Positions 2 through 62,291 of a stretch of DNA of 64,000 nucleotides are shown here, in pieces; the first letter of the stretch is position 1, and each line of letters opens with the position of its first letter. The position numbers and the translations under genes were made by a program. Source of the DNA: Deltaproteobacteria bacterium (lineage in GTDB: Bacteria; Bdellovibrionota; Bdellovibrionia; Bdellovibrionales; JAMPXM01); NCBI GenBank assembly GCA_017302795.1, contig JAFLCB010000008.1, positions 62,001-126,000 on the forward strand, in the 5' to 3' direction. The notes beneath the pieces were generated by a model. It worked only from the letters and a program-made list of their open reading frames with translations. It was not told the origin of the DNA and searched no databases.

Positions 2-400
2 TTTTGGACTTTGGCTATCGGAAATTGGAGCGGCGCTAGTTCGATTCAGAGAAGGACTGTCTCAGCGTTCGTAGATTCCTTGGCGAGACTTAATTTTTCT
101 GACACCGCCTACGACTTTCAGCTTGTTTCTAATCTACCAGAGTTCCGGTCATTTTCTGATCTGGTTGCAGAATCGAATCTCATTCAACAGGGGGCTCAGC
201 TGGCGATGCGACGATCCGAGCTCGCTATTGATGAATTGGCTTCGAGCATGGCGACAGAAAATGTTGAACTTCTCAATGAATTTAATTTTTTGCGAAAGAT
301 TAGTTTAGATCTCGCGCAAGCTTATGGAAACTTTGCGACAATGACCTCGAAAAATGCGAACGTAGTGAGTGGCGAACGATTTGAAGGAGCCCAAGTATGA
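2..400 (+). CDS. C-terminal fragment of a protein upstream of crtI, possibly a polyprenyl (GGPP) synthase
   Basis: The frame is open to the left window edge, so only the last 132 or so codons are visible. The fragment is largely helical. A stretch rich in Ala, Leu and Glu near residues 55-110 resembles the C-terminal helices of isoprenyl diphosphate synthases, but the aspartate-rich motifs that would prove this lie outside the window. Its TGA overlaps the crtI start (ATGA), and an AAGGAG ribosome-binding site for crtI lies inside its last codons, so the two are translationally coupled. Prenyl synthases commonly sit next to crtI and crtB, which is the main reason for the suggestion. It could be another carotenoid or lipid enzyme. 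Confidence 0.55.
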   Translation, partial: FWTLAIGNWSGASSIQRRTVSAFVDSLARLNFSDTAYDFQLVSNLPEFRSFSDLVAESNLIQQGAQLAMRRSELAIDELASSMATENVELLNEFNFLRKISLDLAQAYGNFATMTSKNANVVSGERFEGAQV

Positions 401-2031
401 ACTCAGATTTCAAGAGCGATAAAAAAGGCGCACGCGTTGCTGTGATCGGAAGCGGATTTGGTGGTCTCAGCGTTGCGATTCGGCTTCAGGCAAAAGGCTT
501 TCAGGTAAAGATTTTTGAAAAGCGAGACCAACCTGGTGGACGCGCCTATGTGTACCGAGAAAAAGGCTTCACCTTTGATGCGGGACCTACTGTCATTACG
601 GCACCGGAATCGCTGGAAGAACTTTTTCAGCTTACCGGCAAGCGCATGGCGGATTATGTCGAAATGATTCCAGTTTCCCCATTCTACCGATTGCTTTGGG
701 ATGATGGCTTCAAATTTGATTATTCCAACAATGAAAAAGAACTGTACGAACAGATCGGTAAGAAATCACCGGAAGATGTCAGTGGATACAAGCGTTTCCT
801 CGAATACTCTAAGGAAGTGTTCGACGAAGGTTACACGAAGCTCGCCGCAACCCCGTTTCTGCACATCTGGAGCATGGTTAAAGTTTCGCCTCAACTGGTG
901 CGCTTAGGCGCACACCGCAGTGTTTACGCGACCGTGTCCAAGTTTATTAAAGACAAACACTTGCGCGAAGCATTCAGCTTTCATTCTTTGTTGGTGGGCG
1001 GAAATCCGTTTTCCACATCGTCGATCTACACGTTGATTCATTTTCTTGAGCGCAACTGGGGCGTGTTTTTTCCCCGGGGCGGTACGGGCGCGCTTGTTAA
1101 GGCGATGGTTAAATATTTTGAAGAGCTTGGCGGAGAAATTTCGCTGAAGGCGGAAATTGAAAATATTGAAACCAAGGGCGGGGCCGTTTGCGGTGTTCGT
1201 TCGAAAAACGGAGAGATGTGGGCCTGCGACGCTGTCGTCAGCAACGGCGATGTCTTGCACACATACAAAGATCTTTTGAAAAGTGAGCCCAAAGCAAGAT
1301 CCAGCGAGCGACGACTTGAAAAATCAGACTACTCGATGTCGTTGTTCCTGATCTACTTCGGCACTAAAAAGAAGTACCCGAACCTCGCTCACCACAACGT
1401 TCTATTCGGACCACGTTATAAGGAGCTGTTGGAAGAGATTTTTGTCAAAGGTGGGGAACTGCCAGAGGACTTCTCGCTTTATCTTCACGCTCCAAGTTTG
1501 TCGGACGCAAGCCTGGCGCCTGAAGGCTCGGAGTGCTTTTATGTACTTGCTCCGGTGGCTCACCTTGGAAAGCTTAAGATTGATTGGAAGACAGAGGGTC
1601 CAAAGTATGCGGACCGCATTCTTTCCTATATGGAAGAGAAGTATCTTCCAGGTCTCAAGGAGAACCTCGTGGTGCAAAAGATCTTCACGCCCGAAGATTT
1701 CAAGTACGAGCTCAATTCGCACCTCGGGGCTGCGTTCTCACTTGAACCGAAGCTCACGCAAAGTGCGTATTTCCGACAGCACAACCGCGACTCGAAGATT
1801 GGCGGGTTATACTTCGTTGGTGCGGGCACTCACCCAGGGGCGGGAGTACCTGGTGTTGTGAATTCAGCAAAGGCAACAGCGGGACTTATGATTGAAGATT
1901 TAGGGAAGCTCTTCGGCGCGAAATCTGGTCTTAGTAAGGTGGCGGCCAACGATCCTGCAAAGACAGATATAGCCCGAACCGTCAATATGCCTGCCAGTCA
2001 AAACGAGCGCGGACCTGACGCCAATGTCTGA
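397..2031 (+). CDS. crtI: Phytoene desaturase (CrtI family)
   Basis: FAD-dependent desaturase that converts phytoene towards lycopene at the membrane. The N-terminus carries the dinucleotide-binding fold GSGFGG (residues 18-23), followed by FEKRDQPGGRAY and the FDAGPTV segment typical of CrtI. Near residues 470-490 is the bacterial phytoene dehydrogenase signature, VGAGTHPGAGVPGV. At 544 residues it is longer than the usual ~490-510 because of a polar tail of about 45 residues after the conserved end. The start is fixed by AAGGAG seven bases upstream. Its end overlaps the crtB start by 8 bases, giving a coupled crtI-crtB order. CrtN/CrtO-type relatives are possible, but the neighbours favour CrtI. 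Confidence 0.95.
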   Translation: MNSDFKSDKKGARVAVIGSGFGGLSVAIRLQAKGFQVKIFEKRDQPGGRAYVYREKGFTFDAGPTVITAPESLEELFQLTGKRMADYVEMIPVSPFYRLLWDDGFKFDYSNNEKELYEQIGKKSPEDVSGYKRFLEYSKEVFDEGYTKLAATPFLHIWSMVKVSPQLVRLGAHRSVYATVSKFIKDKHLREAFSFHSLLVGGNPFSTSSIYTLIHFLERNWGVFFPRGGTGALVKAMVKYFEELGGEISLKAEIENIETKGGAVCGVRSKNGEMWACDAVVSNGDVLHTYKDLLKSEPKARSSERRLEKSDYSMSLFLIYFGTKKKYPNLAHHNVLFGPRYKELLEEIFVKGGELPEDFSLYLHAPSLSDASLAPEGSECFYVLAPVAHLGKLKIDWKTEGPKYADRILSYMEEKYLPGLKENLVVQKIFTPEDFKYELNSHLGAAFSLEPKLTQSAYFRQHNRDSKIGGLYFVGAGTHPGAGVPGVVNSAKATAGLMIEDLGKLFGAKSGLSKVAANDPAKTDIARTVNMPASQNERGPDANV

Positions 2032-58685: not shown

Positions 58686-58827
58686 CTGGAAGCCGTAACG
58701 ACATTCCCCCTATCTTTCCGCGCCACTGCACGGAAAGCAGTGAAGGCTGGAAGCCGTAACGACATTCCCCCTATCTTTCCGCGCCACTGCACGGAAAGCA
58801 GTGAAGGCTGGAAGCCGTAACGACATT
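58685..58827. repeat. 61-base tandem repeat, 2.3 copies, between convergent stop codons
   Basis: Full units lie at 58685-58745 and 58746-58806 and are identical; a 21-base partial unit is at 58807-58827. The first starts on the last base of the yceD TAG, and the last reaches the minus-strand TAA. Each full unit contains two mutually exclusive stems, TTTCCG/CGGAAA and CACTGC/GCAGTG. No gene, spacer or T-run is present. Confidence 0.93.
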
Positions 58828-59230
58828 ATAGACTAGCGAACTGATCTATGGGATAGACGCCGCGGATATCATCGGCATTCCCATAATTTTGATCGGGACC
58901 AGCGCTTGTCACGACGATTTCCCTTTTTCGTTTATTGTAAGTCAGCGTATACGCCTTCCCCCATTGGTCGAGTGAAGTGTCGCGGTTGATGTTGTTGGTG
59001 GTCCGCATATTTTTTCGAAGATAGTCAGAGAAATCCTCGGAGCGGGGATGGGACCCATCAATCGTGTCGAGATAAACCATTTTGGTGATATCGCTGATCT
59101 CTTGTTGGGTCGCAACGACCTTTGTTGCCTCCATAACTTTGGCGATCTGAGCTTTTATATTGGGGCTGGAGGCTGCCGCACCACCTGCGACAGTGATCAT
59201 CGGAATTAACTTTACAATTGCATCAATCAC
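58826..59230 (-). CDS. GspG-like C-terminal domain protein
   Basis: 134 residues. The C-terminal part matches the Ca-binding end of type II secretion major pseudopilins (GspG): DQWGKAYTLTY, then TSAGPDQNYGNADDI, with the Asp residues that ligate calcium. The N-terminus (LIPMITVAGGAAAS) is a short hydrophobic segment rather than a full prepilin leader with Phe-Thr-Leu-Ile-Glu, so it is not a normal pseudopilin. It overlaps the start of the cNMP-binding fusion gene's stop by 4 bases (same operon, downstream), suggesting the two products act together. Confidence 0.65.
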   Translation of the reverse strand: MIDAIVKLIPMITVAGGAAASSPNIKAQIAKVMEATKVVATQQEISDITKMVYLDTIDGSHPRSEDFSDYLRKNMRTTNNINRDTSLDQWGKAYTLTYNKRKREIVVTSAGPDQNYGNADDIRGVYPIDQFASL

Positions 59231-61371
59231 GTAGCGCTTCCTTGTACATTGCGATTTTCAGAAACAGTTTCCAAGTAAAGGGCGATCGCCGCGTTCTGAG
59301 ATAAAACCTGCCAGAACTGTTGAGCCGTTAGCTTCAAAAGGCGGCAAGGCTCTTTGGTAAGGACGCTGGCAGATCTTGGTGAATTCAGAATCAAAGCCAT
59401 TTCGCCAAAGAAGTCCCCTTGCGCAAGTTCAGCGATAACTCTTCCGTTCGTGATGACATCAACGGCGCCGCGAATGAGGAGGTAGAAGTCCTTGTCAGTT
59501 CGGCCCTGCTCAATTACCTGACGGCCAGCGGCGACGCTAAGAACTTCCCCCTGATTGAAAAACAGACTCACGACTTCCTTGGGCGCTTCGCGGAATAATT
59601 CACTCGACGAAACATACTGTCCAAGTAAGAGTCGATCGAGGAAAGCGTCAGCACTTGCTTTGAGGTTTTGGTGATTTAACAATTCGTCGATCACTTTTCG
59701 CGGGATTGCTAAAATCCTACAGACGGAAGTCGTCACGACATCGGCCGATCTGGCTGTGTTGGCCAGCAAAGTATTTTCGCCGAAGACAGTAGGCGCCTTT
59801 AGAGTTGCGACTTTCTGAACTGCGCCGGTTGACTGCCGCTTATGAACGGCAACGTCTCCTTCGAGTAAAACGAAGAGTTCATCGCTGAAAGTTTCTTGAA
59901 CGATAATGTGAGCGCCGGGCGCAACTTTTCGCAGCTCCGACTTGCCGATCAAGAACAAGAGGACATCGCGATTCAGACTTGCAAAGAGGGGGATATTGGC
60001 AATCGAATCCGCCACTAGTTCGGCGTTTTCCATCACTTCAGTCTGCGTGTGCCGTTTCGATTGTTTCACAAATCGTTTGGTCTTTAGGGGGTGCAAGATG
60101 TTGGTGATAACGATTCGGAACAAATCAAAGACGAGGTAAAGAAAACTGAGAGCGAGGGCCAATCCTAAAATCGTTGCTGCGAGCAGCTCCGCGAACGGTC
60201 CGTTTTTATACGTTTCCAAGGCTCTTGAAATTAAAATTGAATCGTTGCGAGTGATCAACGACAGCATTAAATTGTAAGAGACCATCGTCCAAGTGATCGC
60301 CATCGTCGAATAGGCCGTGTAAATACCAGAATCTGCGATTTGTTCTGATTTTGTAGAGATAGAAAATAGGCCACGGTTTTTTAAGTAGGGAAGTAGCTCA
60401 ACTGCTGACCGTTGGTTGTAGACGATGTTGAAGAAACTAGAGAGATCGGACTTTCGGAATGGATTGAGGTCGATAATCGCAAGAACAGCAGAAACCCAAA
60501 ACAGATCGTCCAGCAGTGGCCAATTGGGCGCAAAGGTCGTTGAAATTGCAGAGGCTGCCGAGAAGACGAAAAAATAAGAGCAGCCGACAGCCACAAATGC
60601 TAAGGTTCCCATTCGGCGTCCGCCCGCCATGTAGATTTTGTCGTCATTGCTTTTTAGCGCTAGATAAAACAAGCCCAGTTCAAGTTGTAGCGGGCTACGT
60701 GCACCCGTAAGCAGCAATGTCAGAAGACTTTTGATCAAAGTTTTTGCGGTAATGAGAGTGGAAGCGGCGGCAAAAAAGAAAACCAGGCCTTTTACGTAAC
60801 TGTCGTCGATTTTTAAAAAACCGGCTGGCACATCTGCTTGTCCAAGAGCTATTGCGCCGATCATGAAGCTGAGGGTCACGAGCATTGTGCCCACAGCTGC
60901 CATAATGAAGGCAATCATCGACGGCTGCGTAATAAGTTTTCCGGAAAGAATTTCGATGCTAAAGATTGCGCGAGTCAGCCATATCGGTTTTCGCTCAAAC
61001 ATTTCTGCACGTTCGGCGGCATCGGAAGTCATCAAATGTTCGGCTCCCTCAAGACAGCCCTGCGTCTGAAGTTTTTGGAGCGTCGTGAAGAAGGTTTTAA
61101 AAGGTACCCGGCCGTGTGTGCGATGAAGAGATTCAAGTATTTCGGGAATTGTTTTGAATCCGTCGAGGAGCGGCAATATATCCCCGGCGGCATTTGGCAG
61201 AGAAACCTGACTGCGCCCATCGGACAGTTCGAACAGCAGTGGCGCGCTGCTAGGAACCGCCCCCGTGCCCGACGCTAATTGGCTAAAAATGTGGCCTTGT
61301 TTCAGGCGTGGTCGCATGTGCTGAAGCGACTGAGATTCTGGTGAATTCTGATTTTGTGGATTACTTGCCAT
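59227..61371 (-). CDS. PqqD-like / degenerate M50-like membrane protein with two cyclic-nucleotide-binding domains
   Basis: 714 residues from ATG 61371. Residues ~35-110 resemble a PqqD-like winged helix (LLDGFKTIPEILESL). Residues ~120-430 hold about seven membrane helices with a site-2-protease-like layout; the second signature, DLNPFRKSDLSSFFNIV near residue 307, matches the NPxxxxDG(Y) segment, but the position expected for HExxH reads TAKTLIKSL, so the protease site seems lost. Residues ~464-570 and ~590-690 are two CRP-like domains, each with a phosphate-binding cassette (FGENTLLANTARSA; FGEMALILNSPRSA). It may sense cAMP or c-di-GMP-class nucleotides in the membrane. The function is unknown. 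Confidence 0.8.
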   Translation of the reverse strand: MASNPQNQNSPESQSLQHMRPRLKQGHIFSQLASGTGAVPSSAPLLFELSDGRSQVSLPNAAGDILPLLDGFKTIPEILESLHRTHGRVPFKTFFTTLQKLQTQGCLEGAEHLMTSDAAERAEMFERKPIWLTRAIFSIEILSGKLITQPSMIAFIMAAVGTMLVTLSFMIGAIALGQADVPAGFLKIDDSYVKGLVFFFAAASTLITAKTLIKSLLTLLLTGARSPLQLELGLFYLALKSNDDKIYMAGGRRMGTLAFVAVGCSYFFVFSAASAISTTFAPNWPLLDDLFWVSAVLAIIDLNPFRKSDLSSFFNIVYNQRSAVELLPYLKNRGLFSISTKSEQIADSGIYTAYSTMAITWTMVSYNLMLSLITRNDSILISRALETYKNGPFAELLAATILGLALALSFLYLVFDLFRIVITNILHPLKTKRFVKQSKRHTQTEVMENAELVADSIANIPLFASLNRDVLLFLIGKSELRKVAPGAHIIVQETFSDELFVLLEGDVAVHKRQSTGAVQKVATLKAPTVFGENTLLANTARSADVVTTSVCRILAIPRKVIDELLNHQNLKASADAFLDRLLLGQYVSSSELFREAPKEVVSLFFNQGEVLSVAAGRQVIEQGRTDKDFYLLIRGAVDVITNGRVIAELAQGDFFGEMALILNSPRSASVLTKEPCRLLKLTAQQFWQVLSQNAAIALYLETVSENRNVQGSAT

Positions 61372-61463: not shown

Positions 61464-62291
61464 ATGCTTATGGCAGATCTATTTTCTAAGTTTATATCGA
61501 TGTTCATGGGGTCCGGAGCGCCCGGAAAATCAAAAGCAAGCGGCGATGGACCAACGTCGAGCGACGCAAATAAGGCGCTAGCTTATGGTTCGGATCCTCG
61601 CCGTTACAAGCGGGCGACTTTGCTCGTCGGAAGCATTTCTTCTCTCCACACGCAGCTTGCGTCCGCAACGGCCCAGTACAGGGGGCGAAGCTTTCCGGTT
61701 TTAGATCTTAGTCACACTGGTCTTGCACTTCAGCGCGAGGAGATTGCTGATCATGAACTTCCCGATGTGACAAAAACAGAGCCGATGTCGGTCACCCTTG
61801 GTCTTTTCAATCCAGTGGCGGTGCAAGTGGCCCTTGTGCGACACTCGGAACGAGTCCTTGCCTTCGAATTTTCGAACATGTCAACGGAAGGTCGTCTCGC
61901 GATCGATAAGTTTCTTGATCCGAAAATGATTGGCCTTAACATGCGCCCCGTTGATCGCGCTTTCTTCTCGCCCGGGGAAACTTTTTCGATTTGGTATTGT
62001 GGACCGCGGGACACGAATTTCTTTTTGTGGATGAGTGGTGGAAAGGTTGACCGTTCGATCATTCAAATGGGTGAAGATCAGTTTGCTCTTGCGCCTTCGA
62101 ATGTATCGGGAGTTCGCTTTGTGCGGCAGACCTCCGACGGATCCAGTAAAAAAGAAGATGCGGCTACACTTCGGACCTCCGTCCTCTTTGCATTGGATGT
62201 TGCACTCCAGGTTCGGGACGGGAGCGACGCTGTTGCCGGCCTTGTGAAGCTTCTGACGGAGGCGGCAGACTCTCTTCAAACTGGTAGTTAA
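61464..62291 (+). CDS. PilZ-like cytoplasmic protein
   Basis: I use ATG 61464. After a Gly/Ser-rich N-terminal part, residues ~45-135 look PilZ-like: RRYKRATLLVGSIS, an Asp-Leu-Ser-x-x-Gly motif (LDLSHTGLAL), and strands SVTLGLFNPVAVQVALVRHS. The remaining ~140 residues are mixed with Trp/Phe-rich strands. The D-x-S-x-x-G-type motif is the main evidence; the Arg-rich stretch is only partly conserved, so c-di-GMP binding is uncertain. It is first in an operon with a thioesterase and glpX. Confidence 0.7.
   Translation: MLMADLFSKFISMFMGSGAPGKSKASGDGPTSSDANKALAYGSDPRRYKRATLLVGSISSLHTQLASATAQYRGRSFPVLDLSHTGLALQREEIADHELPDVTKTEPMSVTLGLFNPVAVQVALVRHSERVLAFEFSNMSTEGRLAIDKFLDPKMIGLNMRPVDRAFFSPGETFSIWYCGPRDTNFFLWMSGGKVDRSIIQMGEDQFALAPSNVSGVRFVRQTSDGSSKKEDAATLRTSVLFALDVALQVRDGSDAVAGLVKLLTEAADSLQTGS

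Follow-up and report, generated by a model that had tools for sequence, protein, structure and literature searches.

A putative S2P-fold pseudoprotease with an RRE/PqqD-like domain and tandem cyclic-nucleotide-binding domains, genetically linked to a GspG-like protein in Bdellovibrionota

The window, i.e. the whole 64,000-nucleotide stretch of contig JAFLCB010000008.1 (assembly GCA_017302795.1) that was analysed, harbours a minus-strand gene for a protein of 714 residues. A small gene for a GspG-like protein overlaps its 3' end, and a gene for a PilZ-like protein diverges from its start. The features of the locus are as follows, in window coordinates.

58826..59230, minus strand: GspG-like partner gene, 134 aa, GTG start (PF08334 E 2e-4; GspG structures E 1e-5)
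59227..61371, minus strand: whole gene, 714 aa, with an RRE/PqqD-like domain, a very probable S2P-fold pseudoprotease core and two cNMP-binding domains (ORF, Pfam, orthologs, hhalign)
61036..61317, minus strand: RRE/PqqD-like winged-helix domain, residues 19-112 (hhalign with PqqD, RRE structure matches)
60052..60972, minus strand: S2P (M50)-fold membrane core of six helices, residues 134-440 (hhalign, model, structure matches)
60730..60744, minus strand: degenerate HExxH site, K210-T-L-I-K214, aligned to HEFGH of active PqqD-M50 proteins
60445..60465, minus strand: N303-P-F-R-K-S-D309, counterpart of NPLLRYDG, with the third ligand position acidic (alignment)
59647..60009, minus strand: cNMP-binding domain 1, about residues 455-575 (PF00027)
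59734..59784, minus strand: phosphate-binding cassette 1, FGENTLLANTARSADVV, with E532 (Glu in 39 of 39 relatives) and R541 (Arg in 34 of 39)
59272..59619, minus strand: cNMP-binding domain 2, about residues 585-700 (PF00027)
59359..59409, minus strand: phosphate-binding cassette 2, FGEMALILNSPRSASVL, with E657 (Glu in 41 of 41 relatives) and R666 (Arg in 39 of 40)
61464..62291, plus strand: PilZ-like protein, divergent, 92 bp from the family gene (PF07238 E 0.0011, below the cut-off)

The start of the 714-residue ORF at the ATG at position 61371 is backed by same-family orthologs (50-67% identity) that share its N-terminus. The curated models of Pfam and NCBIfam recognised only the cNMP-binding domains; neither the PqqD nor the M50 models of Pfam matched the protein, and both calls were therefore checked by other means. 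The domain anatomy given in a preliminary description of the ORF, namely a PqqD-like part followed by an S2P-like core and two cNMP-binding domains, is well supported, and this order is kept across the phylum. We are confident that the protein is an S2P-fold pseudoprotease carrying an RRE-type domain.

The family and its domain arrangement are spread across Bdellovibrionota, with matches at E 1e-40 in 75 of the 291 genomes, soluble forms counted. The soluble relatives (L019-L034 and L080, Bdellovibrio-type genomes among them) harbour the RRE-like domain and the two cNMP-binding domains without the membrane core, which makes the core dispensable for part of the function. Two other members, L061 and L062, have one cNMP-binding domain each. 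The genome of the window also codes for a distant paralogue of 691 residues (L002:256-2331, contig C16) with a degenerate site and two cNMP-binding domains, and the gene that follows it resembles one for a secreted trypsin-like protease. Outside the phylum, support for a Verrucomicrobiota member (L113) is weak, with E 6e-5 for the RRE and E 0.15 for the core.

Profile comparison of the family N-terminus with free-standing PqqD proteins from within the phylum gave an hhalign match of 94.7% (E 6e-8), or 90.1% after the four most distant members were dropped. For structural comparisons, the N-terminal half was folded alone, because structure searches with the whole model were swamped by the cNMP-binding domains. 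The resulting AlphaFold model covers residues 1-448 (mean pLDDT 75, pTM 0.69). Its residues 19-112 match the RRE structures of TbiB1 (leader-bound), LynD, TruD, TigE and ThcOx at Z 7-8, with CteB also among the structures matched. The PqqD-like N-terminus that had been read from the letters alone is thus borne out by both approaches. As for the Pfam model PF05402, it matched one relative (E 0.011) and not the 714-residue protein itself. Weak matches of relatives to PaaA-like_N, PKMT_2nd and FUR are best explained by the resemblance of the RRE domain to other winged-helix folds.

Residues 15-448 are collinear with active planctomycete PqqD-M50-HlyD proteins over both domains (hhalign 97.2%, E 2.9e-11, 378 columns). 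This set of PqqD-linked M50 proteins was reached via a Singulisphaera protein at L239. The core alone matched the PqqD-M50 proteins at 85.8% (E 5e-6); without the four distal members, the values were 96.0% (E 4e-9) for both domains and 47% (E 2e-4) for the core. Controls with reversed profiles and twelve block shuffles reached 1.6% and E 0.03 at most. In the model, the best structural match of the core is SpoIVFB (Z 8.6, 178 residues, span 134..425, in order), and mjS2P is also matched in order (Z 5.7, 169 residues, span 135..424), although such Z values taken alone are at about the noise level for helical proteins. A beta hairpin is predicted at residues 228-241, after the helix expected to bear HExxH. 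The comparison with S2P and PqqD folds that the preliminary description had advised thus came out as it had anticipated, with an M50-like core. Its proposed HMM search for M50 gave a divided answer: the Pfam M50 model found nothing, and the profile comparison with active PqqD-M50 proteins was positive.

The catalytic site of this core is degenerate. HEFGH of the active proteins aligns on KTLIK (residues 210-214), at the very place where the preliminary description had located the HExxH position, in TAKTLIKSL. HExxH is missing at this site from all 40 relatives whose sequences extend over it. Position 210 is Lys or Arg in 34 of these 40 and position 214 is Lys or Gln in 29, so the substitutes of the lost histidines are mainly basic or amide residues. 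At the position of the catalytic Glu, the relatives mostly have Thr, Ser, Gly, Ala or Asn, and a single one (L013) has Glu. Relative to NPxxxxDG or LDG, the NPFRKSD segment has kept Asn, Pro and Asp but not Gly, and the third zinc-ligand position, 309, is Asp or Glu in 34 of 41 relatives. The basic residue at 210 and the acidic one at 309 tend to vanish together (Fisher p 0.005, uncorrected for ancestry and confounded by kinship), a pattern that would fit a salt bridge in place of zinc. His427 and Cys264 are the only residues of their kinds in the core and neither is conserved, which leaves no alternative metal site there. Both outcomes that the preliminary description had named as fatal to its proposal were examined; we found neither a fold other than S2P nor an intact metal site elsewhere in the core. 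An in-frame HExxH was also absent from all 67 of the lower-ranked genome loci that encode cNMP proteins, and an active PqqD-M50-cNMP intermediate was thus not found among them. Since the defining HExxH was checked and is absent, we did not file the protein as an M50 peptidase; by its sequence, it belongs with the PqqD-M50 branch as a non-peptidase homologue.

The C-terminal part presents no such loss. PF00027 matches it in two stretches (E 3.6e-36, 123.5 bits for a cut-off of 27.5), and the ribose-binding Glu and phosphate-binding Arg are present in both cassettes, E532 and R541 in the first and E657 and R666 in the second, in agreement with the two CRP-like domains with FGE...RSA motifs described earlier. 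The NCBIfam model TIGR03896 (cyc_nuc_ocin) also matches the pair, at E 1e-15 and a score of 58, below its cut-off of 161.05. Six class III nucleotidyl cyclase-type domains are encoded in the same genome, and these cyclases could be the source of the ligand.

The survey of genomic partners that the preliminary description had suggested yielded the strongest functional clue, the linkage with the GspG-like gene, along with a PilZ-like gene that recurs nearby. The GspG-like protein represents a new partner family, found in 17 of the 291 genomes of the phylum and almost exclusively directly after the pseudoprotease gene: in all but one of these genomes (16 of 17), its gene is the next one 3' of a family gene. 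The exception, in genome G158 (L280:7287-7679, plus strand), is a free-standing copy with an apparent ordinary Sec signal peptide. In the window, the start of the partner gene and the stop of the family gene overlap by 4 nt (GTGA, read from the sequence), and most pairs, in several families, have such 4-nt overlaps. The preliminary description had passed over this overlapping gene, as well as the acidic third ligand position and the basic or amide replacements of the histidines.

The similarity to GspG lies in the C-terminal half of the partner, which displays the signature DxWG...SAGPD...DD. The window copy scores 21.9 bits with PF08334 (T2SSG; cut-off 21) and falls short of the cut-off of TIGR01710. 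Two relatives score 23-24 bits with PF08334, and in three others the match is below its cut-off or absent. At the N-terminus, a conserved K-x-x-P motif is found together with a short hydrophobic stretch. No prepilin-peptidase site of the G-F-x-x-x-E type occurs in the 11 aligned partners, and the hydrophobic start could be a plain signal peptide. The pseudoprotease probably holds or escorts its GspG-like partner rather than cleaving it. In one large group, f4, no GspG-like gene is found beside the family gene, and the GspG-like protein is therefore not the sole client.

Four things can be read in the sequences: how the domains are arranged, that HExxH is lost, that the nucleotide cassettes are intact and that an operon with the GspG-like gene is conserved. 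From them we infer the following mechanism. With six membrane helices, the RRE-like and cNMP-binding domains would both be cytoplasmic. The RRE-like domain would capture the N-terminal segment of the partner, with its K-x-x-P motif and hydrophobic stretch, and the S2P core, with Lys or Arg at the first ligand position opposite the acidic third one, would retain the hydrophobic segment uncut. When the tandem domains bind cAMP or cGMP, this grip might change, which would control whether the GspG-like domain is exported, folded or released on the outer face of the membrane, and the PilZ-like neighbour may link the module to c-di-GMP. Our leading proposal, that a non-proteolytic member of the PqqD/RRE-linked S2P branch has been converted into a membrane receptor or escort for the GspG-like partner that responds to cyclic nucleotides, is a tentative one, plausible as a whole but short of probable. 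Its more specific form, with a salt bridge for zinc, a cAMP- or cGMP-gated membrane chaperone for pseudopilin-like cargo and c-di-GMP input via PilZ, is rather unlikely to be right in all its parts.

A different reading, which we hold to be unlikely though a serious competitor, gives the core a passive role. The protein would be a membrane-anchored integrator of second messengers, in which the core is an anchor or dimerization platform, the cNMP-binding domains sense cAMP or cGMP, the output goes to PilZ or another signalling partner and the GspG-like protein serves as periplasmic sensor input. The PilZ-like genes speak for it. In the window's own lineage the gene is divergent and 92-135 bp away, and in group f4 it is upstream on the same strand, frequently with a 4-nt overlap; the proteins of the two lineages are homologous (hhalign 36.6%, E 4e-4, 180 columns; control pairs 0.3% at most), so that PilZ-like homologues adjoin the family gene in two lineages in different orientations. 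Their PilZ motifs, RxxxR and SxxG, are invariant at R46, R50, S83 and G86 in 12 sequences, and among the copies scanned only that of L210 passes the PF07238 cut-off. The convergence of cAMP and c-di-GMP known for Bd1971 of Bdellovibrio (PMC6717892) and the absence of the core from the soluble relatives also favour this reading. Nevertheless, the conservation of NPF..S[DE] and of Lys or Arg at 210 exceeds the needs of a plain anchor, and the linkage to the GspG-like gene is very tight. As a separate observation, the PilZ-like protein of the window bears a C-terminal extension.

It is improbable that the system serves RiPP-type export or maturation, with the GspG-like protein as a ribosomal precursor whose leader the RRE-like domain would recognize and with the core taking part in export alongside modifying enzymes, on the model of PqqD-M50-HlyD or cyc_nuc_ocin systems. 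The RRE fold, the kinship to PqqD-M50-HlyD proteins and the sub-cut-off match of cyc_nuc_ocin to the cNMP pair all point that way, but no ABC transporter, HlyD, radical SAM or cyclodehydratase gene was recognized among the recurrent neighbours read, which are mostly housekeeping-like genes, and the partner is a GspG-like domain rather than a short core peptide. At seven f4 loci (L197, L198, L201, L202, L209, L210 and L077), genes close by resemble those for a subtilisin-like protease, an M14-type carboxypeptidase or a cytidine deaminase, in combinations that differ from locus to locus.

The remaining two readings concern the core itself. An unrelated membrane fold with a coincidental NPF motif is very improbable: profiles of the ordinary S2Ps of the phylum, of both the CBS and the short type, gave no signal, the S2P sequence signal coming only from the PqqD-M50 branch, and Foldseek gave E-values of about 1 with the N-terminal half, but the collinear match to PqqD-M50 proteins extends over both domains with decoys at 1.6% or less, and two S2P structures match the whole core. 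Least credible of all is an active protease that uses a different metal site or has its HExxH displaced, for which the acidic residue kept at the third ligand position might be invoked, since HExxH aligns on KTLIK, the single His and Cys of the core are unconserved, and the HExxH-like strings of L016 and L058 lie at positions other than the aligned site.

Rhomboid pseudoproteases have established that intramembrane-protease folds can be reused for handling membrane clients. In the open-access literature searched, we found no report of an S2P-fold counterpart, nor any description of this architecture or of an inactive S2P of this kind. The present family would provide, to our knowledge, the first recognized S2P-fold pseudoprotease. 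With a phylum-wide family, a small partner tightly linked in several lineages and built-in nucleotide sensors, the client, the ligand and the gate are each directly testable. The family also hints at a route by which cAMP and c-di-GMP signals could converge on the membrane in Bdellovibrio-like bacteria.

Several known systems share parts of this arrangement. GspG, the major pseudopilin of type II secretion, has the C-terminal DxWG and S-x-G-x-D...DD of the partner; the latter lacks a prepilin-peptidase site and is found here outside a type II secretion operon. Bd1971, a cAMP-activated c-di-GMP phosphodiesterase, couples cAMP to c-di-GMP (PMC6717892); it is from a related bacterium, and its cNMP-binding domain is wired to c-di-GMP as proposed here, but it is an EAL enzyme without membrane core. 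The CASP16 target T1298/Bd2879, considered as a solved relative, has a different architecture. The TIGR03896 proteins have tandem cNMP-binding domains and a link to peptide export by annotation, but the 317 positions of the model leave no room for an RRE domain and an S2P core. iRhoms and derlins (see also PMC7554728) are catalysis-free intramembrane-protease folds that bind and traffic membrane clients; theirs is the fold of rhomboids, which are serine proteases, rather than of S2P, and they have no nucleotide sensors.

Closer in fold are SpoIVFB and mjS2P, which share the six-helix S2P fold with its re-entrant beta hairpin and likewise end in a regulatory domain. Unlike the 714-residue protein, they are active zinc proteases with CBS instead of cNMP-binding domains and no RRE domain. 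As a precedent for the proposed capture of the partner, the membrane-inserted pro-sequence is captured by beta-augmentation in SpoIVFB, which has a C-terminal CBS domain (PMC11486902), and its re-entrant loop follows the HExxH helix just as the predicted hairpin at residues 228-241 does. The closest system is that of the PqqD-M50-HlyD proteins of Planctomycetota (Singulisphaera L239, 741 aa, and L242-L270), which share the order of RRE/PqqD-like domain and S2P core over 378 columns. The Pfam M50 model scores them weakly; they are the nearest active branch. In these proteins HExxH and NPLLxxDG are intact and, by visual inspection, a HlyD-like part follows, whereas the present family has lost the metal site and carries two C-terminal cNMP-binding domains.
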